DNA from: Clostridia bacterium
GTDB lineage: Bacteria; Bacillota; DSM-12270; Thermacetogeniales; Thermacetogeniaceae
Assembly (NCBI GenBank): GCA_902812385.1
Contig: CADDZD010000004.1
Span: 1-64,000, forward strand
Direction: 5' to 3'
DNA: 64,000 nt
Under the pieces are notes generated by a model. That model was not told the DNA's origin and did no database searches. It saw nothing but the letters and a program-made list of their open reading frames with translations. Positions 1,089 through 29,210 of the stretch are shown here, in pieces; the first letter of the stretch is position 1, and each line of letters begins with the position of its first letter. The translations under genes were made by a program, and so were the position numbers.

Positions 1089-1410
1089 CCTCATCCCCCC
1101 AGGGCAGCCATAAATCCAGTAAAGGCGCGTGCTGCTGCGCACCGTAAATGTCCCTTTCCCCCAGATCCCCGCAGGGCAGAGGCCTCTTCATGGTAGCCTT
1201 GAAAGCGCAGGCGGGGTCGAAGTATACCACCTCCAGGATGTCCTGCTCGGGCACCCCGTAGAGGCGGGCGATCAATGCCGCGTTCAGGCTGTTGCTTCTT
1301 TTTACCCGCTCGTAACCATCCCTGTCTTTGAATATGATGTCCAGGGTCAACTCGTAGGGGCCGGCGTTCTTGGTCCTAATCACCTGGGCGAGTTCAACCA
1401 GCGGCTTCAT
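1075..1410 (-). CDS. DUF4387 family protein
   Basis: 111 aa from ATG 1410, preceded by GGAGGTGCGGTC; the reading frame extends further upstream, but that part lies inside the AtuA gene. ATGA overlap (1407-1410) with the stop of the AtuA gene shows translational coupling. The sequence (MKPLVELAQVIRTKNAGPYE near the start, then a FDPACAFKATMKRP segment) matches what I know of DUF4387, a small acidic protein usually found directly after AtuA/DUF1446 genes, as here. Function is unknown. The constant pairing suggests it is a second subunit or partner of the DUF1446 protein, here in the methylaspartate pathway. Confidence 0.8.
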   Translation of the reverse strand: MKPLVELAQVIRTKNAGPYELTLDIIFKDRDGYERVKRSNSLNAALIARLYGVPEQDILEVVYFDPACAFKATMKRPLPCGDLGERDIYGAQQHAPLLDLWLPWGDEDEGS

Positions 1411-2765
1411 GACCGCACCTCCTCGAAGCTGACCGGGAAGATTTCCCGGGGGTGAGCCAGAGTGATCAAATGGTGTACAGAAAAGACGTAGGCTGCGCCG
1501 ACCTTGAAATCGGAGGGCGAGTAGGGAAAGGCCAGGTTCCCGGCGGTGGAAAGCCTCCCGGGGAAACCGAAATGCAGCATGGTGGACCGGGCAAAGCCGC
1601 ATACCGCTTCCGCCAGTTCCTCCGTCTCCGCCACCGCTTCCAGGACGATCCCCACCTCGTGGCCCGGTTCCGGGCGGGGCTCCTGCTTTCCCATGACCCC
1701 GTCCCTGCCGTAGACGTGAAAGTTCAGGCTGAACCTCCGGCGCTCGGAACTGAAGTTGTCCTCCGTGCGCTCCCGCACCCCTGCCAGTATTTCCTCCAGG
1801 GCGGAGATAAACCTGGGGTCCCGGGCACCCGCAATGGAGACGACACGATAGCCGATCATCCTCGCCCCCTCTACCTTGACCGTGTACGGTGAAACCGGGC
1901 GGAAGCGGCTCCCCTCGACGGCCACCCTGCGACCGGTAACCTGCCGGAAGGAGGTCCCATGCAAATCAAGAATACCGCCGGGGCCCGGGAGCAGGTAGGG
2001 GTTGCTCTTTTCGTACAGGGTGTGGGCCGCCACCGAGGCTACGGTGGCCTGCCTTTTCGGGCTGGCCGCCTCCACCAGGAAGCGGCTTTCTTCCAGCAAC
2101 CCGATCATGCAGTCGCTCCCGCTCCCCGGGACTGCGGCGATGGCGGCGCATTCCAGGATCTTGCCCAGGTGCAGGGCCAGTCCCGGATCGAACCCCTCCT
2201 TGATGGGGAGGGCGGCAAACACCGCCGGGTCATAGCAGCGCCCCGCCAGGACAACCTCCGCCCCACCGTCCAGGGCTTCGATCAGCGGCTCGACACCCAT
2301 CTGCGCCACCAGGTTGGTGCTTTCGGTTATAATCTCTTCCGTAAGTTCCGGAACCGGTCCCAAGGGGCTGACCCGCCCCTGACGGAGCGCTTCCGCAAGG
2401 TACTGCTTCGAGACATCCGCCGGGATTGCCGCCATCCTGAAGGAGAGCCCTTCCTCCCTGGCCACCTCCAGGATAATCTCCCGGCACCACTCCAGGTGCT
2501 GCCTGGCCCCGGAACCCCCGGCGGTCCCGATCAAGAGGGGAATCCGCAGGGTGCGTGCCGCCCGCAGCAGGAAGGTGAGATCCCGCTTGACCGCGCCCCG
2601 GGGCACGAAGGACTTGCCGGAACCCAGGTAGTAGGGCCCAGGGTCGGTGGAACCGGCGTCCACGGCGATGACGTGGGGCCCGCAGGAAAGGCCGTTTTCA
2701 AAGGAGCCCGCGGGAAACCCGTAACCCAAAATAGCGGTCGGGGAAAGCAAGACCATCTGTTTCAT
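1407..2765 (-). CDS. AtuA-like acyclic terpene utilisation family protein (DUF1446)
   Basis: 452 aa, ATG 2765 in ATGA overlap with the stop of mal. The N-terminal half has the DUF1446 features: VIAVDAGSTDPGPYYLGSG, LLIGTAGGSGARQHLEW and a GRCYDPAVFAA segment. AtuA was named from citronellol/geraniol catabolism in Pseudomonas, but no terpene gene is nearby. In anaerobes the family with DUF4387 sits next to glutamate mutase and methylaspartate ammonia-lyase. I infer a step on mesaconate, citramalate or a related C5 branched acid. No mesaconase or citramalate lyase is visible in the window, so this pair might replace or assist such a step; that is speculation. Confidence 0.82.
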   Translation of the reverse strand: MKQMVLLSPTAILGYGFPAGSFENGLSCGPHVIAVDAGSTDPGPYYLGSGKSFVPRGAVKRDLTFLLRAARTLRIPLLIGTAGGSGARQHLEWCREIILEVAREEGLSFRMAAIPADVSKQYLAEALRQGRVSPLGPVPELTEEIITESTNLVAQMGVEPLIEALDGGAEVVLAGRCYDPAVFAALPIKEGFDPGLALHLGKILECAAIAAVPGSGSDCMIGLLEESRFLVEAASPKRQATVASVAAHTLYEKSNPYLLPGPGGILDLHGTSFRQVTGRRVAVEGSRFRPVSPYTVKVEGARMIGYRVVSIAGARDPRFISALEEILAGVRERTEDNFSSERRRFSLNFHVYGRDGVMGKQEPRPEPGHEVGIVLEAVAETEELAEAVCGFARSTMLHFGFPGRLSTAGNLAFPYSPSDFKVGAAYVFSVHHLITLAHPREIFPVSFEEVRS

Positions 2766-4021
2766 CCGACCACATCCCCGTCTCTTTTATACCGCAGGAT
2801 CCGCAGGGCACGGTGCATCTCGTTCACCACCACCATCATCCCCTCGTCCACCCCCATCCCCGGCTTGGCCAGCATCTGGTCGGGACGGGTGGACAGGGCG
2901 ACGTGTACGCAGACCCGGGCGGAGCGGTCGGTCTCGTTGCAGGTCCCGCCCAGGTAGGCCCCGCACCCGCGTTCCCTGGCGTAAAGGATGGCCTCCACCG
3001 TGTTGTTGATGCCGCCCAGGTCCGGGGTCTTGACCTGGACCATATGGCCAGCTCCGGCATCCACGAAATCCCGGACGTCCTCCAGGGTGTTGCACCACTC
3101 ATCGGCTACGATCTCAACGGATACTCCCTTGACAACCAGAAGAATCCTCAATTTCTGTAGGGCCTCCATCTGCCCGGCCTTGGAGCCCATGTCGACGGGT
3201 CCCTCGATCCGCAGCTTGAGGGGAGCGGCCGCGCCCTCCAGCCGGGCCAGGTAGTCGGCGATCCTCTCGAGGTTGTTCTCAAAGGCCAACCCCAGGGTGC
3301 CGTACACGTCGATGTGCAAGACGGGACGGTAGTCCTCCCCTGCCAGTTCCCGCACCCGCCTGCTCAACCAGCCGACGTAATCGTAGAGCTTCTCCCCGTT
3401 CCTTCCCAGCTTCAGTTCCACGTTGTTGATCAACCCATGGGGCAGGACGTCGGCCCGCTTGATTATTGCCTTATCCGCATTGGTAAACCGTTCGTCTCCC
3501 GTCTGGGCGAAGACCGGAACGGGTTCCAGGACCAACCCGGTCCCGTATTCGTCGGCCAGCACCTCGCACATCAGCCTGCGCTCTTTCAGGGCCACGGCAT
3601 GGAGCAGGGCCTGGGTCAACCCGTAGCGGATGGCGGTATGCAGGCGCCTGCCGTCCGGCCCGGGCAGGGAGTCAAACTCCTCCGCCATCTCCCGGAATCC
3701 CGTGATTTCCCTCCCTTTAAGCCTTTCTCCAAGGTATTCTTCCACCAGCGAGACGTAATTTTCTGCCAGAAATAAAGGGTCACGGCCACCAGCCCCCGAG
3801 TACTGGACGGCTGCACAGTCCCCGTAAGCCATCTCCCCGCCGGAGAGGAGCAGCATGATGCTCAGGGACTCCCCACGCTGCCTGACAGAAGAAAATCCCG
3901 GAGTGCGCGGTTCCCCACGGTAGGCCGCACCGTCTTCCCCGGCACCCATTTTGATCGCCAGCTGGTCGTCAAAGAAAAAACCTGTCAGCCCCGGAGAGGC
4001 CAAAACCTTCTCAATACGCAT
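2762..4021 (-). CDS. mal: Methylaspartate ammonia-lyase
   Basis: 419 aa, close to the usual 413 aa. Enolase-superfamily enzyme that eliminates ammonia from (2S,3S)-3-methylaspartate to give mesaconate. The catalytic base is Lys331 in VQVKTPDLGGINN, the same number as in Clostridium tetanomorphum MAL. Metal ligands Asp238 (HIDVY), Glu273 (RIEGP) and Asp307 (VADEW) are present, as is the His of DVLPHGLINN at about 195. The gene lies 4 nt downstream of the mutase E subunit gene and overlaps atuA by ATGA, so it acts directly on the mutase product. Fully intact. Confidence 0.95.
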   Translation of the reverse strand: MRIEKVLASPGLTGFFFDDQLAIKMGAGEDGAAYRGEPRTPGFSSVRQRGESLSIMLLLSGGEMAYGDCAAVQYSGAGGRDPLFLAENYVSLVEEYLGERLKGREITGFREMAEEFDSLPGPDGRRLHTAIRYGLTQALLHAVALKERRLMCEVLADEYGTGLVLEPVPVFAQTGDERFTNADKAIIKRADVLPHGLINNVELKLGRNGEKLYDYVGWLSRRVRELAGEDYRPVLHIDVYGTLGLAFENNLERIADYLARLEGAAAPLKLRIEGPVDMGSKAGQMEALQKLRILLVVKGVSVEIVADEWCNTLEDVRDFVDAGAGHMVQVKTPDLGGINNTVEAILYARERGCGAYLGGTCNETDRSARVCVHVALSTRPDQMLAKPGMGVDEGMMVVVNEMHRALRILRYKRDGDVVG

Positions 4022-4025
4022 TTTT

Positions 4026-5477
4026 TCACCTCGGTTTGCCCACCAGCCGGCCCTTGCTGATGGCGTAAATATCGTCGATCACCATTCTGAAGCCGGGCTC
4101 CCGCTTCTCCTGCCGGCCTCGTTCCTCAATTTTCTTCCTGTGAAAATTTTTTATTTCATCGGATAAGGGAAGGTTGCCCGTGTTCAGGAGCCTGATCGCC
4201 CCGTTGCCATCCCGCACCGGCATGATGCCTCCCCGGGTCACCCTGGAAGGGGCGAAAGGAACGTCAAGGACTCCCGCCGCAAAAGACCTGACGGTTCCAA
4301 TGGCCAGATCCCCGTCCCCCAGATCCAGTACCCTGTCAAATATTTCCTGTACCTCTCTTTCAATCACACCTTCCTCTTCCCGCAGCTCCGGAGTCTCGGG
4401 AATGTGCTGCTCCGCCAGCATCCTGAGCACCTGGCGGGTGCAGAGCAGCCCCGCCACGTTGGCCTCCAGGCTGGGCACACCCAGGGCCTCGTGGGGTGTT
4501 TTCACGATCACCTTACCGGCACCTGCCAGGGCTGCAGTAGCCGCTCCCCAGGCAATCACCCCCAAGGCCCGCGACTCCTCCTGGGGGAACCCCCCCATCC
4601 ACTGGTGAAAAACCGTGGTCAGGAGTACGTCGGAGTAGCCGAAGCGGTCCAGGTAGCTTCTCCCCAGCCGGGCCAGGGTTCGCAGGGCCGCGGCGTCCTG
4701 GATCAGGTTCCCTCCCTGCCCGTAGCCTATGGCGATGCTCTTGACCCCTTGTGCAGCCGCCAGCAAAGCCTCGATAATCCCGATCACATGGGAAATGAAG
4801 GGGGGAACGAGGGTCCCCGTCAGGGGGCCGAACATCTCCCGGTTGATAATGATACCGTGTTCGGCATAGACCCCGCACAGGCGGTCCACATACTGCCAGT
4901 CATGCAATGAGCGTTCCAGGGGCACATCCTTGGCATAGGGGATGTTGTAGGATATCCCACCGCCCTCAAAATCCGTAAAACCCGCCGCCAGCGTTATTTC
5001 GGCCAGGAGCCGGGCGTCGGGAGTGCCGTGCCGCACCTGTACCGGAACACCGGTTGCCTCGATAATCCTGCGGCACTCTTTCACCCCGTAGTTAACCGCC
5101 GGGAGCCCGTTCAGCATGGAGCGCCCGGCTGTCCTGGATTCCTCGATCCCCCTGGCGGCCTCGGCGTAGCGGTTCTGGCGGGTGTAGGAGTCGATGGTGG
5201 TGGGCAAAAAGTCGGCTTCCCCTTCTTTTTCCAGAGATCTCAGCAGGGCAATGTGCTCGTCCACCAGGGCGACACCCGCCCGGGGCTGCAGGAAAATGCG
5301 GCCCTCCGCCTGACCCGCCAGGAGTTTGTGATAGGATACCTTTTCTTTTGGTAAAGCTTCGTGATACTCAAATGCCTCATCGAGGTCCACCTCCCTGCCG
5401 GTAGGCCAGGCATTCAGCACCTCGCCGCGCTCCTGCATGAAACGTTCGATGTCCCACTTGCGGTTTTGCAGGCTCAA
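4026..5477 (-). CDS. glmE: Glutamate mutase epsilon (E) subunit
   Basis: 483 aa. TIM-barrel catalytic subunit of adenosylcobalamin-dependent methylaspartate mutase, which converts L-glutamate to 3-methylaspartate. Segments seen: QVRHGTPDARLLAE (substrate region), FEGGGISYNIPYAKDV and AIGYGQGGNLIQDAAALR. I chose TTG at 5477: the SD GGGGAGG lies 8 nt upstream and the TTG overlaps the TGA stop of glmL (TTGA), whereas the upstream in-frame GTG at 5486 abuts the SD. The length then agrees with clostridial GlmE. Works with the S subunit two genes upstream. Confidence 0.95.
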   Translation of the reverse strand: MSLQNRKWDIERFMQERGEVLNAWPTGREVDLDEAFEYHEALPKEKVSYHKLLAGQAEGRIFLQPRAGVALVDEHIALLRSLEKEGEADFLPTTIDSYTRQNRYAEAARGIEESRTAGRSMLNGLPAVNYGVKECRRIIEATGVPVQVRHGTPDARLLAEITLAAGFTDFEGGGISYNIPYAKDVPLERSLHDWQYVDRLCGVYAEHGIIINREMFGPLTGTLVPPFISHVIGIIEALLAAAQGVKSIAIGYGQGGNLIQDAAALRTLARLGRSYLDRFGYSDVLLTTVFHQWMGGFPQEESRALGVIAWGAATAALAGAGKVIVKTPHEALGVPSLEANVAGLLCTRQVLRMLAEQHIPETPELREEEGVIEREVQEIFDRVLDLGDGDLAIGTVRSFAAGVLDVPFAPSRVTRGGIMPVRDGNGAIRLLNTGNLPLSDEIKNFHRKKIEERGRQEKREPGFRMVIDDIYAISKGRLVGKPR

Positions 5478-6850
5478 ACAGTACACCTCCCCGCATGCTT
5501 TAGCGTCTCCCTCAGCAGTGCCCGCGCCGCTTCAGGATATATGTCCACCAGCAGCCCGATGGCGGCTAAAATATAGGCGCTATCAAGGAAACAGTCCGGC
5601 CGGCGCGGTGTCAGGGCCAAAGGGTCACCCTGCCTGAGAGACTCTTCGATCAGGCCGCAGGGGTCCACTGCATGCACCAGTACCCCTCCCGTGCCCACCA
5701 GCACCTCCACCCCGGTCAGGTCCTTCCCCTCCTGGAACCAGATCCTCCCTTCCGGAGTATAGGCCTCAGTCAGACGGCCGGCATGCCGCCGCAAGGCTTC
5801 CCTGATACATGCGATTGCGAAGGCACGATCGAACTCCTCCTCCCTCTCATTACGTGGGATTGCCTCTCGTACCGCACTCACCCTTGCGGCATACGCCGTG
5901 AGCTCGTCCCCACCGGCGGCAAAAGGAAGAAGAGACAGTACGGCGTTTTCGCCTACTGCCTCCAGCAAGGACAGGACGCTCACCCGGACCCCCAGATCCC
6001 CTTCCACCGTGCGCTTGGCAAAGGGCTCGGGCAGTCCCTTGTAGATGCACCCTGATGTTCTCGGTTTTCCTTCACAGAAGGAATGCACGTCGGTAGTCGC
6101 CCCCCCGATGTCGATGAGAACAACATCCTTTTCCAGGGTTTTCTGCAGAAGCTCCCCGGCCTTCATCACCGCCAGGGGGGTGGGCATGGCCAGCCCGGCT
6201 TCCTGCTGGATCCGTTCCAGGCCCCTGGCTTTCGTGATCTCCTCCAGGTAGAGATCCCTGATCGCCTTCCGGGCGGGCTCCGGGTTGAGCACATTGACCT
6301 CAGGCATGACGTTCTCGGTTACAACCACCCGGGGAACACCGCTTTCCAGGATTGCCGCAGCCTGCGATGCCACCACTTTGTTGCCCGCCACCACCACCGG
6401 AACCCCCAGTCCTGAACCTGCAATCAGAGAGGCGTTCTCCAGGATGGTCCTGCGCTCCCCCCCGTCGGTGCCTCCGGCCAGCAGCAGCAGGTCCGGCCGC
6501 AGGTTTTTAATCTCTTCGATCTCCCGCAGGGTAAGGGTGTAGGCGTAACTGGCCACGACCCTGGCACCGGCTCCCAGGGCAGCCTCCCGGGCCGCCTTCA
6601 CCGTCAGGGCAGGCACCAGGCCGACGGCCACGATCCTCAAACCACCTGCGGCGGAACTGCAGGCCCGTTTGATCTCGATTCCCTCCAGCAGCCTGGGCGG
6701 AAAGCTTCCCAGGGCTTCGACAAGCCCCTCTCTCAGATCCGTAGCCGCCGTGGTGGGAGCCTGGGCGGTTCCGAGCAGCCCGGGCGGATCAAGGTTGGCC
6801 AGGGTAACCTTGGTAAAGGTGCTGCCGAAATCGATCAACAAAGCCTTCAT
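5474..6850 (-). CDS. glmL: Glutamate mutase-associated ATPase MutL/GlmL
   Basis: 458 aa. Actin/Hsp70-like (ASKHA) ATPase with the phosphate-1 motif [11 protein letters not shown] at the N-terminus, [11 protein letters not shown] and [14 protein letters not shown] as the second phosphate and adenosine regions. Genes of this type lie between glmS and glmE in clostridia, and MutL is regarded as the reactivating chaperone that exchanges damaged B12 cofactor. ATGA overlap with glmS upstream and TTGA overlap with glmE downstream give tight coupling. The hydantoinase/oxoprolinase fold family is related, but the neighbours settle the identity. Confidence 0.92.
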
Positions 6851-7260
6851 GCGCCGAGATCCCTCTTCAAATCGACAATGGCCACCTCAGGCAGGGTTCC
6901 CGGCGGATATACCCGGTCAAACCCCATTTCCCTGAAGAGCTTTTCCACTTCGGCAAAGGTCCGCTTGCCCACAACCAGGTTGCCTCCCACGTACAGCAGG
7001 ATATCCCCGATGCCGGACTCGCAGCATTTTTCCCTTAAACCCCGGCAGTCCATCTCACCGTGGCCGTACAGGGAGGAAACCAGGATCGCCCCGGCATCGC
7101 TTTCGATGGCGGCGTTGATGAATTCCTCCTGGGAAACCATCACCCCGAGGTTGACCACTTTGAAACCGGCCTGGCTGAGGCTCATTTCCAGGATCTTGTT
7201 ACCGACCGCGTGCACATCGGCACCGATCACACCCAGAACTACCGTGTCTTTCCGCGGCAC
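6847..7260 (-). CDS. glmS: Glutamate mutase sigma (S) subunit, B12-binding
   Basis: 137 aa, the standard size. Carries the base-off/His-on cobalamin signature DxHxxG as DVHAVG (Asp15, His17, Gly20), then [13 protein letters not shown] and [12 protein letters not shown], which line the corrinoid tail pocket. His17 is expected to ligate cobalt. Starts with GTG 7260 preceded by GGAGG at 7-nt spacing. The S and E subunits assemble into the active mutase. Lies 56 nt after the methyltransferase corrinoid protein gene, which shares the same fold but differs in sequence and partner enzyme. Confidence 0.95.
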
Positions 7261-7316: not shown

Positions 7317-7949
7317 TTAATTCAAGAGTTGCTTGCAGAGTTCCACGGCGGTTCCGGCATCCGGAGCATAGCCGTCGGCGCCGATCTCTTCCGCATACTC
7401 CTGGGTGACCGGGGCGCCTCCGATGACAACCTTAACCTTACTGCGCAGCCCCTCTTTGTCCAGCGCTCTGATGACCTCCTGCATGACCGGCATGGTGGTG
7501 GTAAGCAGGGCGGACATTCCCACCACCTGTGGCTTGTGCTCCTTTACCGCCTGCACGAACTTTTCCACCGGAGCATCCACGCCCAGATCCACGATGCTGA
7601 ACCCGCTGCTCTCCAGCATCATGATCACCAGGTTCTTGCCGATGTCGTGCAGATCCCCCTTGACCGACCCCATTACCACCTTACCGGCGGTGGGGATATC
7701 GGTTCCACCGATCTTTTCTTTCGCCAGTTCGACGCCAGCTTTCATGGCCTGGGCGGACATCATCATTTCCGGCACGAACATTTCTCCCTCTTTGAACCGC
7801 ACACCCACTTCATTGATACCGGGTATCAACCCCTCGTTGATGACCCTGAGCGGGTCTTCTCCCGCTTCCAGCAGTTGCTTCGTGGCATCTTTCACCTTTT
7901 GAATGTCTCCGGTGATTACCAGTTCGGCCAGTTCTTTAAGGCTGCTCAT
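7317..7949 (-). CDS. Corrinoid protein of an MttB-type methyltransferase system
   Basis: 210 aa, typical of MtbC/MttC/MtgC-like proteins. An N-terminal helical cap (residues 1-85, EAGEDPLRVINEGLIPG and EMFVPEMMMSAQAMK) is followed by a B12-binding Rossmann domain with GDLHDIG (His101 as cobalt ligand). It would accept a methyl group from a methylated amine via the MttB-family proteins just upstream and pass it on, probably to THF through the methyltransferase at 28191-28991. ATG 7949 follows GGAGGG. The three genes mttB2-mttB1-corrinoid protein form one transcription unit leading into glmS. Confidence 0.9.
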   Translation of the reverse strand: MSSLKELAELVITGDIQKVKDATKQLLEAGEDPLRVINEGLIPGINEVGVRFKEGEMFVPEMMMSAQAMKAGVELAKEKIGGTDIPTAGKVVMGSVKGDLHDIGKNLVIMMLESSGFSIVDLGVDAPVEKFVQAVKEHKPQVVGMSALLTTTMPVMQEVIRALDKEGLRSKVKVVIGGAPVTQEYAEEIGADGYAPDAGTAVELCKQLLN

Positions 7950-8035
7950 GAATATCCCTCCAGTTTTTTCAGATTTATGTTAAATAACCTGCCGCAGGGC
8001 TCCGCGTAAGTTCGGCCAATAGCCAATGCCGGGAA

Positions 8036-9487
8036 TCAGCCGGCCAGCCTCTCCTCCGCCCGGCGCAGGATGCCGTCGATCTCCCGCTCAGCATCGGGGG
8101 CGAGAGGCACAGGCCGGTAAGCCTCCATGATATCGCGGAGTTTCTCCCTGATCCGGGCTCCCATGGTCCTGGAGCCTTCTGCCGCCCAGGCGTCGTAGTT
8201 ATTGAAATCGGACAGGTTACCCCGCCAGCTTTCCCTGAAGTGCCGGGCGGTGTGTTCATCCCCCAGGAAGTTGCCGCCGGGGCCCACACGCCTGATGGCT
8301 TCCACAGCCAGGTAGTCCGGAGTCGTGTCCACTCCGCCGAGCATGTACCTCACCCGGGAGATCACCTCATCGGTCAGCACCAGCAGTTCCAGGGAACCGG
8401 TGCGCCCGGATTCGATGTAGAAGACATCGTGCATCAGGTTGCACCCCTGCAGGGCGCCTATCAGTGTGAACATGGTTCCCTCCACCACGGCCTGCTCGTC
8501 GAAGGCCTTGGAACTGCTGCACCCCGCGTAACCCCAGGACGGCAGGGAGTAATAGCGGGCCAGGTCGCACAGGCATCCCTGGAGCAGCAGCGCCTCGGGT
8601 ACGGAGTAAACCGCAACCATTGTGCCCATGTCCAGGGGGGAATCGCCGTATCCGTAGAGGAAAGGGGCACCGGGATTCTTCAACTGGTGCACCACCAGCC
8701 CGCAGAGGGCCTCGGCGTTGGCCTGGACCACCGTTCCGGCCACCGTAACCGGTGTGGAGGCTCCGGCCACAGCACCACAGGCGAAATTGACCGGAATCCT
8801 GTTTTCCGCGGCCAGCAGGAGTTTGTCCACCGATTCGAAGGGAAGCTGCAGCGGCGAGGTAGGCTCACAGTACAGGGCAAAGATCGGCCGGTGCTTGAGG
8901 GCCTCCGTACCGCCGGTGGCAGCGGCTGCCATCTCGAAGATGTCTGCCACCGTCCCCCTGTCCTCGGCAATCACCACCTGGGGCTTCACGCTGTTCTTGA
9001 GCATCAGGGCATACTGGGTTCTGTTGATCATGCGCCTGTCGACGTCCGACAGCAGCCCCATGGACATGACAAAGTCGAGGTTGGGAAGGGCGTCGACCAC
9101 CCGCAGGGCCGTGGCAACGTCGGAACTCTGCCAGGGCCTTCGCTCGCCGGTAAAGGGGTCAAGGTAGATCAGGGTATCGGAACCCGCCCCAAAGTAGACA
9201 TTCGACTTCTCCAGCCACAGGGCCGGTTCGCCCAGCCTGTTGTAAAGGGTGATCCTCGATGGAGCGGACTCAAGCGCCCGCTTCACCAGGGCACTGGGAA
9301 TATAGATCCGGCCGCCGGCGTCAGTGTAGGCCCCTGCCTGCTTCAAGAGGTCCGCCGCCTCGTCGTGGTGCACAACAACGCCCACCTCTTCTAGGACGCG
9401 GCAGCTGGCGCTGTGGATCTCCCGGATCTGTTCCGGGGTTAGGGTTCGAAAAGCCATTCCTGCTCCGTGCTTGCTGGCGTATTCCAT
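8036..9487 (-). CDS. Non-pyrrolysine MttB-family corrinoid methyltransferase (first copy)
   Basis: 483 aa. Trimethylamine-methyltransferase superfamily: the N-terminal FRTLTPEQIREIHSASCRVL start and FGAGSDTLIYLDPFTGER segment are typical. There is no in-frame amber codon, so it lacks pyrrolysine; such members (MtgB, MtpB, MtcB, MtyB) demethylate glycine betaine, proline betaine, carnitine or butyrobetaine rather than trimethylamine. The ATG at 9487, with GGAGG 8 nt upstream, is preferred over the adjacent TTG. The substrate cannot be read from the sequence. The setting beside histidine-degradation genes makes N-methylated histidine a candidate. Weakly similar in sequence to the second copy at 9579-11039, so a substrate difference is likely. 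Confidence 0.9.
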   Translation of the reverse strand: MEYASKHGAGMAFRTLTPEQIREIHSASCRVLEEVGVVVHHDEAADLLKQAGAYTDAGGRIYIPSALVKRALESAPSRITLYNRLGEPALWLEKSNVYFGAGSDTLIYLDPFTGERRPWQSSDVATALRVVDALPNLDFVMSMGLLSDVDRRMINRTQYALMLKNSVKPQVVIAEDRGTVADIFEMAAAATGGTEALKHRPIFALYCEPTSPLQLPFESVDKLLLAAENRIPVNFACGAVAGASTPVTVAGTVVQANAEALCGLVVHQLKNPGAPFLYGYGDSPLDMGTMVAVYSVPEALLLQGCLCDLARYYSLPSWGYAGCSSSKAFDEQAVVEGTMFTLIGALQGCNLMHDVFYIESGRTGSLELLVLTDEVISRVRYMLGGVDTTPDYLAVEAIRRVGPGGNFLGDEHTARHFRESWRGNLSDFNNYDAWAAEGSRTMGARIREKLRDIMEAYRPVPLAPDAEREIDGILRRAEERLAG

Positions 9488-9513
9488 CAAAACAACCTCC
9501 TGAAAAAATGATC

Positions 9514-9583
9514 CGGTTCATCCTTGCGCTTGCTCCCGGATAAACCAATAATCGGTGCCGTACGATCGGTATGAAGGCCTAAC
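9514..9583. repeat. Dispersed repeat fragments between the two mttB genes
   Basis: Two pieces of the window-wide repeat family. 9514-9540 holds the TCCTTGCGCTTGCTCCCGG end-motif also seen at about 15558, 26560 and 42760. 9554-9583 matches 45578-45607 at nearly every position (GGTGCCGTACGA core, then GAAGG-C/T-CTAAC). The second piece runs over the stop codon of the upstream mttB gene (TAG at 9579-9581). Confidence 0.7.
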
Positions 9584-11039
9584 TCCGGCACTCCGCCTCC
9601 CGGCGCCTGATAATCGCCTGCATCTCCTCCGCCGCCCCCTCCGGAAGCGCGGCTGCCTGATGACCGGCAAGTATTTCCCTGACCTTCGCCAGGGCAAGAT
9701 CCACCGGGGTCTGCTTCCCCCTGGCTTCCCACTGCTCCCAGAGGTACCTGATGAAGAAGCGGGGGGCCCAGATCTCCTCCCGGAAGTGCTTGAAGGTGTG
9801 CTCGTGCCCCATGTAGTTGCCGCCGGGCCCCACCTCGTGGATGCAATCAACCGCCAGGTGCTCCGGCGTGATCCTGGTGCCGGCACCGGTGTACCGGGCC
9901 ATGTCGATGATGTCGTCGCAGATGGCCAGGAAGGGGAGATATCCCGTCTTGCCTCCTTCCAGGTAGCCCACGTCGTGCACCAGGTTGCACCCCTCCAGCT
10001 GGGTCAGCATGATGGTCATGGCGGCTTCCACCCCTGCCTGGACGTCGGGCAGAGGGGCATTGACACAGCCTGCCTCGGTGAAATTGGGGAGGCCGTAGAA
10101 CTGGGCGATCTGCGTCATGATGGCGTAGTTCATGGAGGTTTCGGGTGCCCCATAGAGGGTGGCGGTGGTCTTCATGTCCATCGGGGTCGCCCCACCGCCG
10201 ATGATGATCGGCGCTCCCTTCTTCTTCAGTTGTGCCATCACCACACCCGCCAGCCCCTCGGCGTTCATCAGGGTGATGCAACCCGCCTTGGTGACGGGTG
10301 TCGTGGCTCCCGCCAGGACCCCCGGTGTATAGACAACCGGAATGTCATATTCAAAGCACTTGAACATCTTGCCGACACCATCATTGGTGTGGACAAGGGG
10401 GGAGATGGGCTCGGAGTAGAGGATGATGTACGGATTGCTTCTCAGGTTGTCCTCTCCGCCGACACAGGCAGCCGCCATCTCGATCAGAGCCTCGGTGTTG
10501 GCTGCATTGTGCGCGGTGAAGATAACCGGCTTGCTGCTGCCCGTGGTCATCGCCTCAAACTGGTGCAGGTCGCTGACGCAGGGGTTGGTATCGGAGGCGA
10601 TGGCATAGCTCATAATGAAATCATAGTTGGGCAGATAATCCATAACCCTGGCCGCCCGGCTGACATCCTCCTTGCGGGACACCCTTCTTTCTCCTGTATC
10701 TATATCAACGGTAAAAGGAAGATCCGAGCCCGTCCCGTAATAAACCCGGTTCTTTTCCAGCGGCATGATCCGCCTCCCGAGCCTGTCGGCGACGCAAATG
10801 CGCTTGGGCGCCAGGCGCAGGCATTCCTCCACCAGCCAGGCGGGGATAAAGACGCGGTTTTCTCGAACCCGGCAGCCCGCCTCCTTCAGCAATTTCAAGG
10901 CTTCCTGGTTTTGCACCAGGATCCCGGTGCGTTCCAGGACCTCCAGGGAAGCATAATGGATCTGCTCCAGCTGTGCATCGGTTATCCATGTCAGGCGCGG
11001 AGTTACCTGTTCGTCGTAATTAGATCGAAACTTATCCAC
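9579..11039 (-). CDS. Non-pyrrolysine MttB-family corrinoid methyltransferase (second copy)
   Basis: 486 aa from GTG 11039 with GGAGG 7 nt upstream. Same superfamily as the gene 88 nt downstream, with RLTWITDAQLEQIHYASLEV, YYGTGSDLPFTVDIDTGER and GCNLVHDVGYLEGGKTG; again no amber codon. It is the first gene of the unit and has a sigma-54 promoter 45 nt upstream. Having two members with a single corrinoid protein suggests either two methylated substrates or successive demethylation of one. The methyl acceptor is expected to be the corrinoid protein at 7317-7949. Confidence 0.9.
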   Translation of the reverse strand: MDKFRSNYDEQVTPRLTWITDAQLEQIHYASLEVLERTGILVQNQEALKLLKEAGCRVRENRVFIPAWLVEECLRLAPKRICVADRLGRRIMPLEKNRVYYGTGSDLPFTVDIDTGERRVSRKEDVSRAARVMDYLPNYDFIMSYAIASDTNPCVSDLHQFEAMTTGSSKPVIFTAHNAANTEALIEMAAACVGGEDNLRSNPYIILYSEPISPLVHTNDGVGKMFKCFEYDIPVVYTPGVLAGATTPVTKAGCITLMNAEGLAGVVMAQLKKKGAPIIIGGGATPMDMKTTATLYGAPETSMNYAIMTQIAQFYGLPNFTEAGCVNAPLPDVQAGVEAAMTIMLTQLEGCNLVHDVGYLEGGKTGYLPFLAICDDIIDMARYTGAGTRITPEHLAVDCIHEVGPGGNYMGHEHTFKHFREEIWAPRFFIRYLWEQWEARGKQTPVDLALAKVREILAGHQAAALPEGAAEEMQAIIRRREAECRS

Positions 11040-11083: not shown

Positions 11084-11099
11084 AGCAAGAATCGTACCA
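11084..11099 (-). promoter_or_regulatory. Sigma-54 (-24/-12) promoter of the mttB-glm-mal operon
   Basis: Minus-strand TGGTACGATTCTTGCT: the GG and GC dinucleotides are exactly 10 nt apart, as sigma-54 requires, with TTGCT at -12. Start point would be near 11073, giving a leader of about 35 nt. Confidence 0.8.
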
Positions 11100-11298
11100 G
11101 CGCTTCCACCCGGACCCGTTTCCCTCCCTCTTGATTAACAAAAAACTCCTTGTAAATGCATCAGGTTCATCCGCCGGGTGTATTTCACACTCTGTTGGTG
11201 TTACCGGAGATGACATGGGAGTCCAATAACACGAGCTATCAAAGGTGAAATTTAAGGAAGAGAGCGACTTGTGGAGGTTGTCAGTCCCCAACCTCTTG

Positions 11299-11441: not shown

Positions 11442-13340
11442 CTAAATCATCGTTATATCTTCATTTCCGGTGAGCCCTTCCAATCCCAGTTCCTTTTGTT
11501 TGGCCGCAGGGATGGAGCCGTCCTCCGCCCACCCCATCAGGGCATAAAACTCCTGCAGCATGGGCTCCAGTCGAACCACCGAACCCCTGCAGGGACCTTC
11601 CGGCACCGGCTCTGCCAGAAATTTTCTTGGAAGGGTGTCGTCCCTGCCGGTGGCCCCGAACCGGAAATTGAAAAGACGCTCGGCGTTGATGATCCGCTCG
11701 CCGATCCCCATCAACTGTTCAGAGGTGAACTCCTCTCCCGCAAAGGCAGAGAGAACGGCAGCAGCCTCCGCCACATCAAAGTCCAGTAACATACCAAACT
11801 CCGGTATCTTGCAGATACCCAGGGAGTCGATCACGGCACAGGCCAGCAGGCACTGCCTGACCATGGCCGGCTTCCCCTCCTCCGAAAGCCTGTCGGCGGC
11901 CTTTTCCGTCCCGTAAGTCTTCAAGGCCTGCTCGGGGGTATAGGTGTATTCCGGCTTGGCGTAGACGTAACCGAAATCCCCCCCACGGCTGGACACGGCG
12001 TAACCCAGCCCGGTTGCCTTGAAACCCCTGGGGTCCATGATGGTGATGCTCAGGCCCTTGACGTGGTAGGCATACTCCTCAGCACCCCTTCCGATGATCT
12101 CCGCAGCCCGCCTCATCCCCCGGGAGAGCACGTCCCCCAGCCAGGTACTGCGTTCGGCAATCTGGCGAACCATCTCCTCCATCGCTTCCGCATTACCCCA
12201 GGCCAGAACCAGGCCGCCTGTATCTTCTTTGGTCAGTATTCCCCGATCAAACAGATCCATAGCAAAGGCCACAATATTTCCCGTCCCCAGGCTGTCAAGG
12301 CCGTATTCGTCGCATAAATTAACAAGGTAGATGCTTTCCAGCCCGTCGGCATTGCCGCACCTGGGGCCCCAGGAGGACAGGGGCTCGTACTCTCCCCTGT
12401 CACCTACGAAACCCTCATGCCTGCCCCTGTCGATCCGGACGAAGGCCCGGCAGTGGATCGGGCAGTTGTAGCAGGCGTGGCGCTTCACCACCAGATCCCT
12501 GTAATGCGACCCGCAGGCGGTTTTAACCCCCTCAAAGGTCACCTGTCTGTAGTTCTTTGCCCCGGAGGCGCCGAGCTCGTCGGTCCAGGTAAGCCAGGTG
12601 GAAGAACCCGTTGTCGACCACATCTCCCAGCAGGGGAGGGACTTCAACCTGGAAATGTATTCCTTGACCGCCGCCACCGCGGCCTCCGGCACATCACTCT
12701 TGTAGGGCTCCGTTTTCCTGACCGCAACGGCTTTCAGGTTCTTCGAGCCCATGACCGCACCCATCCCCGTCCTACCGGCGGCATGCCCCACATCGGTCAT
12801 AAGGCAGCCCAGAGCGGAGAGGTTCTCACCGGCGGGGCCGATGACGATCACCTTTGCCAGGTCGTCCCCCGCCAGTTCCCTGATCCTTTGCCTGGCTTCA
12901 CCTGTTTTCAGACCCCAGACCGTTCCTGCATCCTCAATGGTAATCCGGTCGCCCCTGATATTAATAAAGACGGGCCGCTCCGCCCTGCCAGTAACGATCA
13001 GGGCCAGAATCCCGCAGGCCTTGAGCTCCGCGGCAAAGGCCCCCCCGCCGTTGGAAATCCCGATCAGGCCTGTGAGGGGGGAGCGGGCGCCCACATGCAG
13101 CCGGCCGGTGGTGATCATCCGGCTGCCGCCCAAGAGCCCGCTGGCAAATATCAGGATGTTTTCAGGATCAAGGGGTTCCACGTGCGGGCCGAGATGCTTC
13201 AAGAGGAGATAAGCGCTCAGGCCGCGCCCCCCCAGGTAGGATCTGATCACCTCCCCAGGACACGGCTTTCTCGTAATTTCCTGGGTGGTTAAATCGATCA
13301 GCACCAGGTCCCCCGCAAGGTTTTTCCTCACTATCCCCAC
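11442..13340 (-). CDS. Aldehyde:ferredoxin oxidoreductase
   Basis: 632 aa, full length for the AOR family, which carries a tungsten (or Mo) bis-pterin and one [4Fe-4S] cluster and interconverts acids and aldehydes with ferredoxin. Seen: GARSPLTGLIGISNGGGAFA (pterin-binding start of domain 1), CYNCPIHCRAFV (CxxCxxxC cluster ligands) and a later lone Cys in SLGICKIPEF as fourth ligand. GTG 13340 is used; a GTG 9 nt downstream has better SD spacing. It has its own sigma-54 promoter 190 nt upstream, placing it in the amino-acid regulon. Likely handles oxo-acid-derived acyl or aldehyde intermediates; the substrate is not determinable here. Confidence 0.93.
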   Translation of the reverse strand: MGIVRKNLAGDLVLIDLTTQEITRKPCPGEVIRSYLGGRGLSAYLLLKHLGPHVEPLDPENILIFASGLLGGSRMITTGRLHVGARSPLTGLIGISNGGGAFAAELKACGILALIVTGRAERPVFINIRGDRITIEDAGTVWGLKTGEARQRIRELAGDDLAKVIVIGPAGENLSALGCLMTDVGHAAGRTGMGAVMGSKNLKAVAVRKTEPYKSDVPEAAVAAVKEYISRLKSLPCWEMWSTTGSSTWLTWTDELGASGAKNYRQVTFEGVKTACGSHYRDLVVKRHACYNCPIHCRAFVRIDRGRHEGFVGDRGEYEPLSSWGPRCGNADGLESIYLVNLCDEYGLDSLGTGNIVAFAMDLFDRGILTKEDTGGLVLAWGNAEAMEEMVRQIAERSTWLGDVLSRGMRRAAEIIGRGAEEYAYHVKGLSITIMDPRGFKATGLGYAVSSRGGDFGYVYAKPEYTYTPEQALKTYGTEKAADRLSEEGKPAMVRQCLLACAVIDSLGICKIPEFGMLLDFDVAEAAAVLSAFAGEEFTSEQLMGIGERIINAERLFNFRFGATGRDDTLPRKFLAEPVPEGPCRGSVVRLEPMLQEFYALMGWAEDGSIPAAKQKELGLEGLTGNEDITMI

Positions 13341-13532: not shown

Positions 13533-13548
13533 AGCAAGAAACATACCA
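13533..13548 (-). promoter_or_regulatory. Sigma-54 promoter of the aldehyde oxidoreductase gene
   Basis: Minus-strand TGGTATGTTTCTTGCT with GG-N10-GC. Nearly identical to the hutU promoter in the -12 half. A leader of about 180 nt follows; it starts with a small hairpin GCCGC-ATGA-GCGGC (13496-13509). Confidence 0.75.
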
Positions 13549-13575
13549 GCTTGATGCCGGATCTATCTCACGGGA

Positions 13576-14451
13576 TTAAACCCGCTCCTTTTTTGAAACG
13601 ACGGCAACCGCCCCTCCCAGGAGGATAACCAGTCCGCCCAGCAACTGAAACCAGGTTAAGAACTGGGAAAACAACAGGGCCGAAAAAATTACCGTGACCA
13701 ATGGCTCAATCATGCAAAGAACCGACGCCGGGGTTGAACCGACCAGTTTCATTCCGGTCAGAAAGGCGATCCTGGCCAGGTTTGTGGCAACTAAGGCGCA
13801 CCCGATTATGGCCAGCCATGCTTTAAGCTCGATTCCGAATCTGATGCTTCCCGCCAGCAGCCCCACCGGCAGGACTGTTAACGAGGTAAACAGAGAGAAA
13901 AAAGCGCCGACCAAAAGCGGATGGATCTGCCTTACCAGCCGGTAACTCAGCAGGATAACCGTCGAACAGACCAGGGCGGCTCCGAAGGCCAGGATGATTC
14001 CCGCCAGGTTCACCCTTCCCGGCGACGCCCCCAGCACCATGATCAACCCTGTGAAAGAAACGGCTATGGCCGCTGCGGTCTTCCCCGACGGCTTCTCCTT
14101 GTATATCAAAAAAGAGAGCAGGGCCACCAGGGCGGGATAGGTATAGAAAATGAGTTGTACCAGGGATGCCTGGATGTATTTCACGGAGGTGAGGTACAGG
14201 GTTGATTGCAGGGGCTCCAGCAGCCCCCCGACCGCGAACAGGTAGCCGATCTGGCGCCAGGACGGGTTTACCGGTAGAGATTGCCTGAGAAGATACAGGA
14301 AATAGACTCCGGCACCGATTAAAGACCGCAGAAAAATAAAGGTGAGTACACTTGCATGCCCCTGATATGCGTAAAGGGCAAAAATAGGGATAAACCCGGA
14401 GCAGATACCGGAAAAAAGGGCCAGCAGCGCCCCTCTCCTGAAATCACTCAT
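13576..14451 (-). CDS. EamA/DMT-family transporter
   Basis: 291 aa from ATG 14451 (GTG two codons upstream also possible). About ten hydrophobic helices in two EamA repeats; start SDFRRGALLALFSGICSGFI and second repeat LAGIILAFGAALVCSTVILL are typical of drug/metabolite exporters. Lies between the ferredoxin-like gene and the oxidoreductase, on the same strand. Family members export amino acids or metabolites; the substrate is unknown. Its 3' end is followed within 30 nt by the sigma-54 promoter of the oxidoreductase, so the two are separable units. Confidence 0.85.
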   Translation of the reverse strand: MSDFRRGALLALFSGICSGFIPIFALYAYQGHASVLTFIFLRSLIGAGVYFLYLLRQSLPVNPSWRQIGYLFAVGGLLEPLQSTLYLTSVKYIQASLVQLIFYTYPALVALLSFLIYKEKPSGKTAAAIAVSFTGLIMVLGASPGRVNLAGIILAFGAALVCSTVILLSYRLVRQIHPLLVGAFFSLFTSLTVLPVGLLAGSIRFGIELKAWLAIIGCALVATNLARIAFLTGMKLVGSTPASVLCMIEPLVTVIFSALLFSQFLTWFQLLGGLVILLGGAVAVVSKKERV

Positions 14452-14540
14452 GGCCACCCCATCCGGTGAAGAGCGGTCTAAAAACTCTTCTGTACCGACC
14501 CTCCAGGAAATTCTTGTTAGTATTCTCCCGGCGGCCCATA

Positions 14541-15521
14541 TCAGATCCTCTCCATGGCGATGGCCCCACCGGGGCAGGCGTTGGCGCAGAGACCGCAGCC
14601 CCAGCAGAGATCGGGGTTGAAAGCAACATTCTTCCTTACGATCCCGTCTTTTTCAATCTCGATACCGTCCTGGTAAAAAGCGCCGAAATGGCACCGCTTC
14701 GTGCACAAACCGCAGTAATGGCACCTTTCCTGGTCATACCTGGCCACATAGCGGGATTTAGGCCACTTCCCCTTGGTCCCAAGCCGCCGTGCAGCCCTGA
14801 AGGGATAACAGCAGCAGGCGCAGCAGTTGCACACATAGCCTCGCCCGGCTTCTTTCCAGTTGGGCGGCCCTCCGGTATGCATCAGCCCTTCCCGGTCCAG
14901 CTTGCGGACCAGTCTCTTAGCCTCCTCTTTGGTCAACTCCCTGCCTTCGGCCCGTTCCCCGGGTTCCTGCTCAAGCTGCAGGCAGATTTCCCTGGAGAAG
15001 TCGCAGTTGTCCGCCAGCATCTTACAGTTGCAGGGGAGCACCCGGACCGAAGCTGCGGCGTCGATCATTTCCTCCACCTCATGCACCAGAAGCACCCACT
15101 CATTGTGGCATTTTTCGTATTCCGGGTCGCTGTCGAGCACTTTCTTGAAGTAATCGTTCCTTTTGAGGTACTCCTCGAAGCACCATTCATCCAGCTTCTT
15201 GCGAACCTTTCTGGGGATGACGTAATAATTGCCGTACTTGGCGTAATGGTCCAGCCTGCCGTAGAAAGTGGCCGCACGGTAAAGTGTTTTACCACCCTCA
15301 CTTTCCCTGTTCAGGATCCGCCTCTGGTAGGCCAACTCCAAAAAAACGGCCATCTCTGCAGGGCCTTTCTGCAGCAATGCGGCGATCTCTTCTCCGGCCA
15401 GGCTTTTGCCGTCGAGCATGACCACCAGCCGCATTTCCTCCCCGGTGGCGAACAAGTGGAGGTACGGCCTGACAAAATCGGGCACCTGAAACGCCGCGGC
15501 AAACTCTTCTAACAGATCCAT
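14541..15521 (-). CDS. Two-[4Fe-4S] ferredoxin-like protein with N-terminal helical domain
   Basis: 326 aa. The C-terminus has two clusters, CHYCGLCTKRCHFGAF and CWGCGLCANACPGGAI. The middle has clustered cysteines (VLPCNCKMLADNCD; YVCNCCACCCYPFRA) that could hold additional metal. The N-terminal 110 residues look like a winged-helix/helical domain (EFAAAFQVPDFVRPYL start). Such proteins accompany aldehyde oxidoreductases and corrinoid systems in anaerobes and are annotated as 4Fe-4S binding proteins. ATG 15521 is supported by AGGAGAGG. A role as electron carrier or reductive activator in this block is inferred. Confidence 0.85.
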   Translation of the reverse strand: MDLLEEFAAAFQVPDFVRPYLHLFATGEEMRLVVMLDGKSLAGEEIAALLQKGPAEMAVFLELAYQRRILNRESEGGKTLYRAATFYGRLDHYAKYGNYYVIPRKVRKKLDEWCFEEYLKRNDYFKKVLDSDPEYEKCHNEWVLLVHEVEEMIDAAASVRVLPCNCKMLADNCDFSREICLQLEQEPGERAEGRELTKEEAKRLVRKLDREGLMHTGGPPNWKEAGRGYVCNCCACCCYPFRAARRLGTKGKWPKSRYVARYDQERCHYCGLCTKRCHFGAFYQDGIEIEKDGIVRKNVAFNPDLCWGCGLCANACPGGAIAMERI

Positions 15522-15551
15522 CTCCAACCTCTCCTACTTTGAAAATATGTC

Positions 15552-15826: not shown

Positions 15827-16768
15827 TTACTTAATGAGGCCGTTCTTTTTCAGGAACTCTTTAGCGACTTCGTCAACGCTCTTTTTATCCACATCCACCT
15901 GCTTGTTCAGTTCCATGATGGTTTCGTTGTCCAGCAGCGAGCTCAGCTTCTTCATCTGTTCCGGAATCTTCGGGTAGGCATCCAGGATCTCTTTCCTGAA
16001 GAGCGGAGCGGCGTTGTAAACCGGGAAGCACTTCTTGTCGTCTTCCAGCATGACCAGCCCGTAGGCCTTGACTCTGGCATCGGTGGTGAAGGCCAGTCCC
16101 GCCTCAGCCTGTCCCGTTTTAAGGGCCTCATACCCTACGTTTAAAGCGGCGTTGATCACCAGGTTCCTGGGGTACTTGAACCCGTATACCTCTTCAAAGT
16201 GCGACAGCCCATCGGGGCGCTCATTGTACTCCTGGGTGCTGACGAACCTGATCTTCTCGCCCTTTTTGATCTGATTGATGAGGTCAGAGGTGGTCTTCAG
16301 GTTGTATTTGTCGGCGATGTCTTTTCTCACCATGATCCCGTAGGTATCGTTCAGCGGAGCATAGTCAAGCCAGATGATGTTGTTCTTTGCGTCCCATTCC
16401 TTGACGAGATTGTAGCTCTCTTTCTCGTCAAAGCTCGGGGCGTGCTTCATCACATTGATCAACACGGTTCCGGTATACTCCCAGTAGGCGCCAACCTGAC
16501 CCGATTCCAGGGCAGGCCTGATCACCGCCAGCTCGCCAAGGCCTACCTTGTTTTCTACCGGATAACCGAGGGCCCGCAGGTACTGATAAGTCATGGTACC
16601 CAACAAGAGGGCCTCGGTGAAGGTCTTGGAACCGACCACTATGGTGGGTTTCTTTTCACCGGAAGATGTATTCCCGCCACTGGATTTGCTGCCAGAGCAT
16701 CCGGCCGCTCCAACCAGCATGGCGAGCACCAGAACCGCAACAAGCATGTACCTTAGAAACTTCCTCAT
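15827..16768 (-). CDS. OpuAC/OsmF-type ABC substrate-binding lipoprotein
   Basis: 313 aa from ATG 16768. A lipoprotein signal peptide ends in LVGAAGC (Cys24 as lipidation site), followed by a Ser/Gly linker and the mature start PTIVVGSKTFTEALLLGTM typical of the glycine betaine/choline/carnitine type of binding protein; WEYTGTVLINVM is a family signature. Last gene of a permease-ATPase-permease-binding-protein operon, after a 188-nt gap. Ligand could be a betaine for the MttB enzymes, or histidine, since relatives of the ProU type (HutXWV) import histidine in Pseudomonas. Confidence 0.9.
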   Translation of the reverse strand: MRKFLRYMLVAVLVLAMLVGAAGCSGSKSSGGNTSSGEKKPTIVVGSKTFTEALLLGTMTYQYLRALGYPVENKVGLGELAVIRPALESGQVGAYWEYTGTVLINVMKHAPSFDEKESYNLVKEWDAKNNIIWLDYAPLNDTYGIMVRKDIADKYNLKTTSDLINQIKKGEKIRFVSTQEYNERPDGLSHFEEVYGFKYPRNLVINAALNVGYEALKTGQAEAGLAFTTDARVKAYGLVMLEDDKKCFPVYNAAPLFRKEILDAYPKIPEQMKKLSSLLDNETIMELNKQVDVDKKSVDEVAKEFLKKNGLIK

Positions 16769-16956
16769 CACACATCCCCTCTCCCTACCGGATTTTTTAA
16801 GATTTTTAAAACCGCACTCCTATGGGATCATAATTTCCAGCCGCAGGATCCCCCCTTTTGAAGAGAATACCAGAAAACTATCAACCGGTACCTGTGGCGC
16901 AGCCTCTATTATTACAGATGACGGTCAGACGCCACAAAATTCGCATACCCCGAATC

Positions 16957-17601
16957 CTATTCGCTGCTCATGCCGGGAGGGGTGATCCTGTATTCCAGGT
17001 AAGCCAGTGCCCGGTCCAGGGCAATGGCCAGCACAGCTCCCAATCCGGCTCCGACAATGAGGAATTCCGACCAGAACATATTCAAACCGGTCAAAATCAG
17101 GTCCCCCAAGCCGCCGCCGCCGATGTAGGCGGCGAGAGTGCCGACACTGACCACATACACTGCAGAGGTTCTGATGCCGGCCAGAATGATCGGCATGGCC
17201 AGGGGGAGCTCCACCTCATAGAGTATTTTTTTCGCAGGCATCCCCATGCCCAGAGCCGCTTCCTTCACATCTGCGTTCACCCCGTAGAGGCCGGCAATGG
17301 TGTTCCTGGCGATGGGCAGGAGCCCCTGAACGACCAGGGCCACAATGGTGGGCTTAAGTCCCAGCCCAAGCAAAGGCATGGCAAGAGCAACGATGGCCAG
17401 ACCCGGGATGGTTTGCATCATATTCAAGACATTCAGAACGATAAAACCGTATCTCCTGAATCTTGGCCTGGTCAGGACAACCCCAAGGGGCACCGAGATT
17501 ACCACGGCAACAACAACCGAGATGAGAACCATCAAGATGTGAACGGCCAGCGCCGCCGGCGCTCTGTGGAAAAGAGCATCCTGAAAACGCATCCAGTTCA
17601 T
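16957..17601 (-). CDS. Betaine-type ABC transporter permease (second)
   Basis: 214 aa, five to six membrane helices. The EAA loop is EAALGMGMPAKKILYEVELP, the contact to the ATPase. Start ATG 17601 abuts the ATPase stop (TAA at 17602-17604), so the two are coupled. Paralogous to the permease at 18768-19421; two different permeases with one ATPase is the OpuC/Osm heteromeric layout. N-terminus MNWMRFQDALFHRAPAAL. Confidence 0.9.
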   Translation of the reverse strand: MNWMRFQDALFHRAPAALAVHILMVLISVVVAVVISVPLGVVLTRPRFRRYGFIVLNVLNMMQTIPGLAIVALAMPLLGLGLKPTIVALVVQGLLPIARNTIAGLYGVNADVKEAALGMGMPAKKILYEVELPLAMPIILAGIRTSAVYVVSVGTLAAYIGGGGLGDLILTGLNMFWSEFLIVGAGLGAVLAIALDRALAYLEYRITPPGMSSE

Positions 17602-18723: not shown

Positions 18724-18767
18724 CTCCATCCCCCTAACCGATGTAATTCCCGGCACCGGCCCCCCGA

Positions 18768-29200: not shown

Positions 29201-29210
29201 GAAATGAAGT

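Follow-up and report, generated by a model that had tools for sequence, protein, structure and literature searches.

Two MttB-superfamily proteins lacking pyrrolysine (MttB1 and MttB2) and a corrinoid protein (MttC) are encoded amid histidine utilisation (hut) genes in a 64,000-nucleotide stretch of contig CADDZD010000004.1 (hereafter the window), from a Clostridia bacterium of the family Thermacetogeniaceae. MttC, MttB1 and MttB2, the only genes within 7317-11039 and all on the minus strand, on balance probably make up a corrinoid-dependent module that demethylates N-alpha-methylated histidine (hercynine being the likeliest form) and would feed the anaerobic histidine pathway. The cluster is real and conserved, is probably co-regulated, and from its sequence appears to resemble a corrinoid-dependent quaternary-amine demethylase system. 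The linkage of hut and mttB genes is more than chance, since it is conserved in several lineages and the MttB pair is perfectly correlated with an Fe-S protein in 20 genomes of the family.

The genes were arranged in one co-directional run on the minus strand, which begins with MtgA (start 29063), reaches the AtuA/DUF4387 genes near 1084 and has the order MtgA, HutH, HutI, FtcD, FchA, sigma-54 activator, HutU, OpuC-type importer, Fe-S protein, EamA, aldehyde:ferredoxin oxidoreductase (AFOR), MttB2, MttB1, MttC, MutS, MutL, MutE, methylaspartate ammonia-lyase (MAL), AtuA and DUF4387 (Table 1), with the mtgA gene 63 nt upstream of hutH. The hut set is complete (HutH with its 4-methylideneimidazole-5-one (MIO) triad, HutU, HutI, FtcD and FchA), and with the glutamate mutase (mut) and MAL genes also present, histidine can go to glutamate and then to mesaconate. 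A sequence-only reading of this stretch had correctly called the two non-pyrrolysine MttB proteins, the corrinoid protein, MtgA directly upstream of hutH, the importer and hutHUI-ftcD-fchA; to these calls can be added the sigma-54 activator with its promoters, the Fe-S protein, the AFOR, and the glutamate mutase/MAL genes that follow MttC directly. Its view that the MttB proteins belong functionally to histidine catabolism is supported by relatives, which keep the hut link of the mttB set in several lineages; its ergothioneine branch was not supported (see below).

Conservation of the mttB-hut linkage

The family sample comprised 20 genomes (class- and order-level genome searches gave the same 20), and the pair was counted by MttB2, or by MttB1 where a contig end cut MttB2. 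Orthologues of the pair were found in 10 of the 20 genomes (MttB2 identity 72-91%), among them Thermacetogenium phaeum (89-91% identical), and the Fe-S protein was present in exactly the same 10 genomes. The pair occurred in 10 of 12 hutU-positive genomes versus 0 of 8 hutU-negative ones (Fisher p 7e-4, uncorrected for kinship). The two family genomes with hutU and without the pair, G014 and G018, serve as a natural minus control: hut and mut genes adjoin one another, as fchA-hutU-mut in G014 and as hutI-ftcD-fchA-hutU-mutS-mutL-mutE-MAL-AtuA in G018, and MttB, MttC, the importer and the Fe-S protein are missing at the junction. Since both genomes lack the MttB set together with the importer, set and importer behave as one all-or-none module.

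Spread beyond the family was sampled by a contig scan, a phylum search with a HutH paralog from Syntrophaceticus schinkii (HutH2, described below) and individual loci. The contig scan found Desulfotruncus alcoholivorax, Peptococcaceae BRH_c8a, S. schinkii and metagenome-assembled genomes (MAGs). Wherever contigs were long enough, mttB genes of relatives were linked to hut genes on one contig, as seen in T. phaeum, G006, G016, D. alcoholivorax, BRH_c8a, G407, G103, G065 and G409 besides the window. Desulfotruncus and BRH_c8a share the order hutI-ftcD-fchA-s54-hutU-AFOR-mtgA-hutH-(importer)-FeS-mttB2-mttB1-mttC; no mut genes were found in these two clusters, and a RACo corrinoid activator is encoded close to that of BRH_c8a. 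In G103 and G065, which belong to another family and were found with the HutH paralog and not with MttB as query, the genes are ordered mttB1-hutH-mttB2-FeS-hutI-ftcD-fchA-hutU, and the importer lies approximately 10-12 kb away. G409 has mttB1-hutH-hutP-hutU-mttB2 together and mtgA-fchA-ftcD-hutI farther along the same contig; G166 carries an ordinary hut operon without MttB. An AFOR gene is also part of the cluster in T. phaeum, Desulfotruncus, BRH_c8a, G406 and L063. XDH-type molybdenum hydroxylase genes lie by MttB2-like, mtgA, fchA, ftcD and hutI genes at L127:18629-20000 and L067:6335-10013 (Bacillota MAG). In S. schinkii Sp3 (L116, G015:C254), frame changes split many of the hut genes, hutH into three pieces; these are probably sequencing errors in the draft and were not taken as evidence of decay.

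Protein families and putative sigma-54 control

The MttB pair matched PF06253 over the full length with 277 and 318 bits (curated cut-off 25), in open frames without an in-frame stop and without pyrrolysine. Assignment to the pyrrolysine-containing MttB family (TIGR02369) was rejected, with scores of 389 and 420 bits versus a cut-off of 525 and cysteine at the pyrrolysine position. In a tree of 69 MttB proteins (quick IQ-TREE run with SH-aLRT, with MtpB, MtcB, MtyB and MthB of Eubacterium limosum left out), MttB1 and MttB2 each formed a clade of their own (SH-aLRT 100) made up of hut-linked proteins or their in-cluster duplicates, and MtgB (2qne) and pyrrolysine MttB fell in a different deep branch. 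These separate clades, together with 28-29% identity, also argue against identity with MtgB. In the alignment, the pyrrolysine-bearing loop reads TEAGC in hut-linked MttB2 proteins (IEAGC in one in-cluster duplicate) and GYAGC in hut-linked MttB1 proteins, including those of other families; the window proteins have NFTEAGC (Glu322, Cys325) and WGYAGC (cysteine at the pyrrolysine position), respectively. The variable place in the loop is Thr in most other paralogs of the family, and the Glu of MttB2 and the Tyr of MttB1 (Tyr321) are candidate specificity residues. No hut enzyme gene turned up in the short stretches flanking the other paralogs. The source genome (2.7 Mb, 172 contigs) encodes five MttB proteins, two of them in the hut cluster, and a second cluster encodes a separate MtgB-like protein (L001, 55%).

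MttC has the architecture of a corrinoid carrier, with a cap (PF02607), a B12 domain (PF02310) and the ligand motif DLHDIG at residue 99, and MtgA scored 374.6 bits against PRK07535 (cut-off 259) with PF00809 present. A PF04069 binding protein, permeases and an ATPase with CBS domains identify the importer as OpuC/OsmF-type. PDB relatives of the binding protein include OsmF, OpuCC/OpuBC and the ergothioneine-binding EgtUC; EgtUC was only about the 15th match, and the binding protein is a separate gene product, whereas in EgtU the permease is fused to the binding domain. The Fe-S protein belongs to no named family beyond Fer4 and gave no overall fold match; its model (pLDDT 85) was matched by Foldseek in the ferredoxin tail and the winged-helix part only.

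The pattern CTGGYAYN5TTGCW, derived by tightening a looser sigma-54 consensus so that the count is partly post hoc, had four exact matches in the window (0.05 expected). All four lie on the strand that encodes the cluster, upstream of mtgA-hutH, hutU, AFOR and mttB2, and T. phaeum, as an independent check, has matches upstream of mttB2 and of hutH. The mttB2 and hut genes are likely to be under common sigma-54 control, as sites lie upstream of both and an activator gene lies inside the cluster. No cobalamin riboswitch or other Rfam element was found upstream of mttB in 1-33000, and the window gave no convincing match to the HutP antiterminator. HutP genes were observed in clusters of relatives (L128:5135-5578, L130:7159-7653 and L127:5248-5763).

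Hercynine and alternative substrates

Hercynine is the best single candidate substrate suggested by the gene context, with ring-methylated and partly methylated histidine as further candidates. In the proposed scheme, the OpuC-type importer would take up the quaternary histidine, MttB2 and MttB1 would shift methyls from nitrogen onto Co(I)-MttC, and MtgA, as expected from its family, would hand them to tetrahydrofolate (THF) and thereby to the Wood-Ljungdahl pathway. The free amine would then be converted by HutH, HutU, HutI, FtcD and FchA, through the established chemistry of these families, to glutamate and C1-THF, and glutamate to mesaconate by glutamate mutase and MAL, with the dedicated sigma-54 activator turning on mtgA-hutH, hutU, AFOR and mttB2 jointly. 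The assignment of individual methyls to MttB1 or MttB2 and the loss of the N-methyls from the tertiary and secondary amines belong to the same predicted scheme; as a speculation, the two MttB proteins, the Fe-S protein or the AFOR might help remove the later methyls. A complete hercynine-to-acetate pathway, in which the two MttB proteins strip successive methyls, including that of the tertiary amine, and free histidine for HutH with up to three methyl-THF per molecule, is doubtful. The MttB substrates known so far are quaternary amines that carry an acidic group, a rule that hercynine fits and that counts in its favour (PMC12155760). No literature joining hercynine with MttB, MttB with histidine degradation, or histidine betaine with anaerobic demethylation was found in a search that covered few subscription papers.

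A quaternary histidine at the locus is also supported by a HutH paralog. The window HutH is of the canonical MIO type (GSVGASG at residue 146, catalytic Tyr present), by which a role as ergothionase was rejected, and the source genome (G000) has no second HutH paralog. In S. schinkii, HutH2 (L038:2152-3738) is encoded between the Fe-S gene and mttB2; it is without the MIO triad (GSVGYLAIESH) and has Val in place of the catalytic Tyr, but keeps the fold signature of the family and is nearer histidine ammonia-lyase (HAL) than ergothionase. It was complete in this one genome, with a C-terminal fragment in Thermacetogenium UBA5472 (G017, L043:2-427), and is a candidate betaine lyase. MIO works via the lone pair of an amine, which a quaternary nitrogen does not have. 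Ergothionase is likewise without MIO and has a quaternary histidine as substrate (PMC13405746), and it is by this likeness that the MIO-less HutH2 beside mttB2 points to such a compound.

Several observations weigh against hercynine demethylation by this module. To our knowledge, characterised non-pyrrolysine MttB proteins take one methyl off a quaternary amine and then stop at the dimethyl product; as HutH needs a free amine, at least two further demethylations have to be assumed. In T. phaeum, MtgA is encoded only outside the cluster, elsewhere in the genome, and the AlphaFold model of MttB2 (mean pLDDT 39, 8 close sequences) was too poor for inspection of the pocket. The binding protein is nearer OsmF/OpuC than EgtUC and its specificity could not be read from it; hercynine is a poor ligand of known EgtU proteins (PMC9732360), which leaves the importer class without a hercynine precedent. 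Moreover, some relatives add AcnX, RidA, HisC-like, BhcC-like or GldA genes beside paralogous MttB genes, so that the wider locus may handle other amines, possibly including a further betaine within this regulon. AcnX subunits, RidA, a HisC-like aminotransferase, a BhcC-like aldolase and GldA were observed with MttB1b/MttB2b at L045:9941-15985, L039:11319-15269, L050:323-6676 and L043:481-5793.

Histidine methylated on the ring, as pi- or tau-methylhistidine originating in anserine, balenine or muscle protein, is a serious rival, although an unlikely one; one MttB demethylation of it would give histidine directly. A single demethylation would be enough for the canonical HutH, and the genomic linkage fits equally well. 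Ring-methylated histidine compounds are likely in fishmeal wastewater. S. schinkii was isolated from an anaerobic filter treating such wastewater (PMC5113046). However, the OpuC-type importer family binds quaternary amines, as are all substrates of characterised non-pyrrolysine MttB proteins (PMC12155760); the MIO-less paralog by mttB2 fits a quaternary alpha-nitrogen and not a ring methyl, and two different MttB proteins would be unneeded.

It is similarly improbable that glycine betaine or an unrelated quaternary amine is the substrate, with the hut adjacency resulting from a common C1-THF supply and shared sigma-54 control. Linkage in several lineages, hutH between the mttB genes, the lack of the pair in all eight hutU-negative family genomes, the separate MtgB-like protein of the source genome and loop motifs different from those of MtgB all speak against it, even though common betaines are substrates of most characterised MttB proteins and OpuC importers, C1-folate is common to the hut and methyl-THF pathways, and betaine supports growth of S. 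schinkii (PMC5113046). T. phaeum carries the pair yet is reported neither to degrade betaine nor to grow with trimethylamine, which makes either compound unlikely in that species (PMC3551663).

It is very unlikely that the MttB proteins act not on the amino acid but on a methylated compound further along or beside the pathway (N-methylated urocanate, imidazolepropionate or some other imidazole). The L067/L068 stretch has the molybdenum hydroxylase, MttB2-like, MtgA, FchA, FtcD and HutI genes without HutH, and a divergent urocanase (34%) adjoins MttB2 in L127, but the L067 genome has HutH on the same contig, by an mttB1-like gene, and in G103 and G065 the mttB genes flank hutH itself. Ergothioneine, the origin allowed for by the sequence-only reading, would either be split into thiourocanate and trimethylamine or first lose its sulfur, and the MttB proteins would consume the methylated product; although the binding protein has EgtUC as one of its PDB relatives and S. 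schinkii has the MIO-less paralog (fragment in UBA5472), it is the least probable source and very unlikely, because a TudS-type thiourocanate desulfidase (PF04463) is absent from all 10 pair-bearing family genomes, the source genome is without a second HutH paralog, S. schinkii HutH2 is nearer HAL, and trimethylamine does not support growth of T. phaeum (PMC3551663).

Cluster inventory and comparison with known systems

Table 1. Features of the hut-mttB cluster in the window
Feature	Position	Strand	Basis or remark
Sigma-54-type promoter CTGGCACAAATTTTGCA, upstream of mtgA-hutH	29185..29201	-	same upstream of hutH in T. phaeum
MtgA-type methylcorrinoid:THF methyltransferase	28191..29063	-	PF00809; PRK07535 above cut-off
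HutH histidine ammonia-lyase, canonical MIO triad	26580..28127	-	TIGR01225 above cut-off; motifs
HutI imidazolonepropionase	25015..26286	-	TIGR01224 above cut-off
FtcD glutamate formimidoyltransferase	24112..25011	-	TIGR02024 above cut-off
FchA formimidoyl-THF cyclodeaminase	23464..24093	-	PF04961
Sigma-54 activator (PAS-AAA-Fis)	21892..23352	-	PF00158, PF00989, PF02954
Sigma-54-type promoter, upstream of hutU	21710..21726	-	pattern match
HutU urocanase	19619..21709	-	PF17391/PF01175/PF17392
OpuC-type permease 2	18768..19421	-	PF00528
OpuC-type ATPase (ABC + CBS)	17602..18756	-	PF00005, PF00571
OpuC-type permease 1	16957..17601	-	PF00528
OpuC-type quaternary-amine binding protein	15827..16771	-	PF04069
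Fe-S protein (winged-helix-like N-part, conserved Cys-rich middle, 2[4Fe-4S] ferredoxin C-part)	14541..15527	-	Fer4, structure model
EamA-type transporter	13576..14457	-	PF00892
Sigma-54-type promoter, upstream of AFOR	13533..13549	-	pattern match
AFOR, tungsten-type	11442..13340	-	PF01314/PF02730
Sigma-54-type promoter CTGGTACGATTCTTGCT	11084..11100	-	61 nt upstream of mttB2; T. phaeum counterpart L036:16257
MttB2, non-pyrrolysine MttB superfamily	9579..11039	-	PF06253 E 7.7e-95; loop NFTEAGC; own clade
MttB1, non-pyrrolysine MttB superfamily	8036..9490	-	PF06253 E 2.5e-82; loop WGYAGC; own clade
MttC-like corrinoid protein	7317..7949	-	PF02607+PF02310; DLHDIG motif; TIGR02370/MtgC models below cut-off
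MutS, glutamate mutase B12 subunit	6847..7260	-	PF02310; syntenic with mutL/mutE in relatives
MutL, glutamate mutase reactivase-like	5474..6850	-	PF13941
MutE, glutamate mutase E chain	4026..5486	-	TIGR01503 above cut-off
MAL, methylaspartate ammonia-lyase	2762..4021	-	TIGR01502 above cut-off
AtuA-like protein	1407..2765	-	PF07287
DUF4387 protein, AtuA partner	1084..1410	-	77% to DUF4387 protein of L058

At 159-2765, AtuA-like, DUF4387 and 327-aa (no Pfam match) proteins are encoded, always after MAL in relatives, and this set is a possible missing mesaconate step. The adjoining region 33160-45105 is a ureide/oxamate-type operon (carbamate kinase, AllH, AllG, FdrA, isochorismatase-like, PucR and two family-less proteins of 511-519 aa).

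The MtgB/MtgC/MtgA system of Desulfitobacterium hafniense (2qne, 9yce) likewise combines a non-pyrrolysine MttB protein, a corrinoid protein and an MtgA-type methyltransferase, but has one MttB protein instead of two and the loop RSGGGL; the window system, besides lying in the other deep branch at the identity given above, lies within a set of hut genes and apparently shares their control. MtpB, MtcB, MtyB and MthB of E. limosum are each non-pyrrolysine proteins passing methyls of their own quaternary, acid-bearing substrate to methyl-THF, none of these substrates being histidine-derived (PMC8604678, PMC12155760). The known bacterial histidine-betaine route is that of ergothionase (Treponema denticola, 6s7j; Burkholderia), a MIO-less HAL-family enzyme like S. 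schinkii HutH2, which eliminates trimethylamine without demethylation and is absent from the window. Compared with canonical hut and methylaspartate glutamate fermentation, of which HutH, HutU, HutI, FtcD, FchA, MutSLE and MAL of the window are ordinary members, the window has the inserted MttB/MttC/OpuC/FeS module that is absent in G014 and G018.

Substrates have been assigned to only a minority of MttB-superfamily proteins, and for two clades outside MtgB the conserved context points to a substrate class. If hercynine or a related histidine betaine is the substrate, the cluster would provide an anaerobic histidine-betaine route without release of trimethylamine, unlike ergothionase, and would couple histidine-betaine use to acetogenesis in syntrophic digester bacteria; the orthologous cluster in a type strain, T. 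phaeum, makes this prediction testable.

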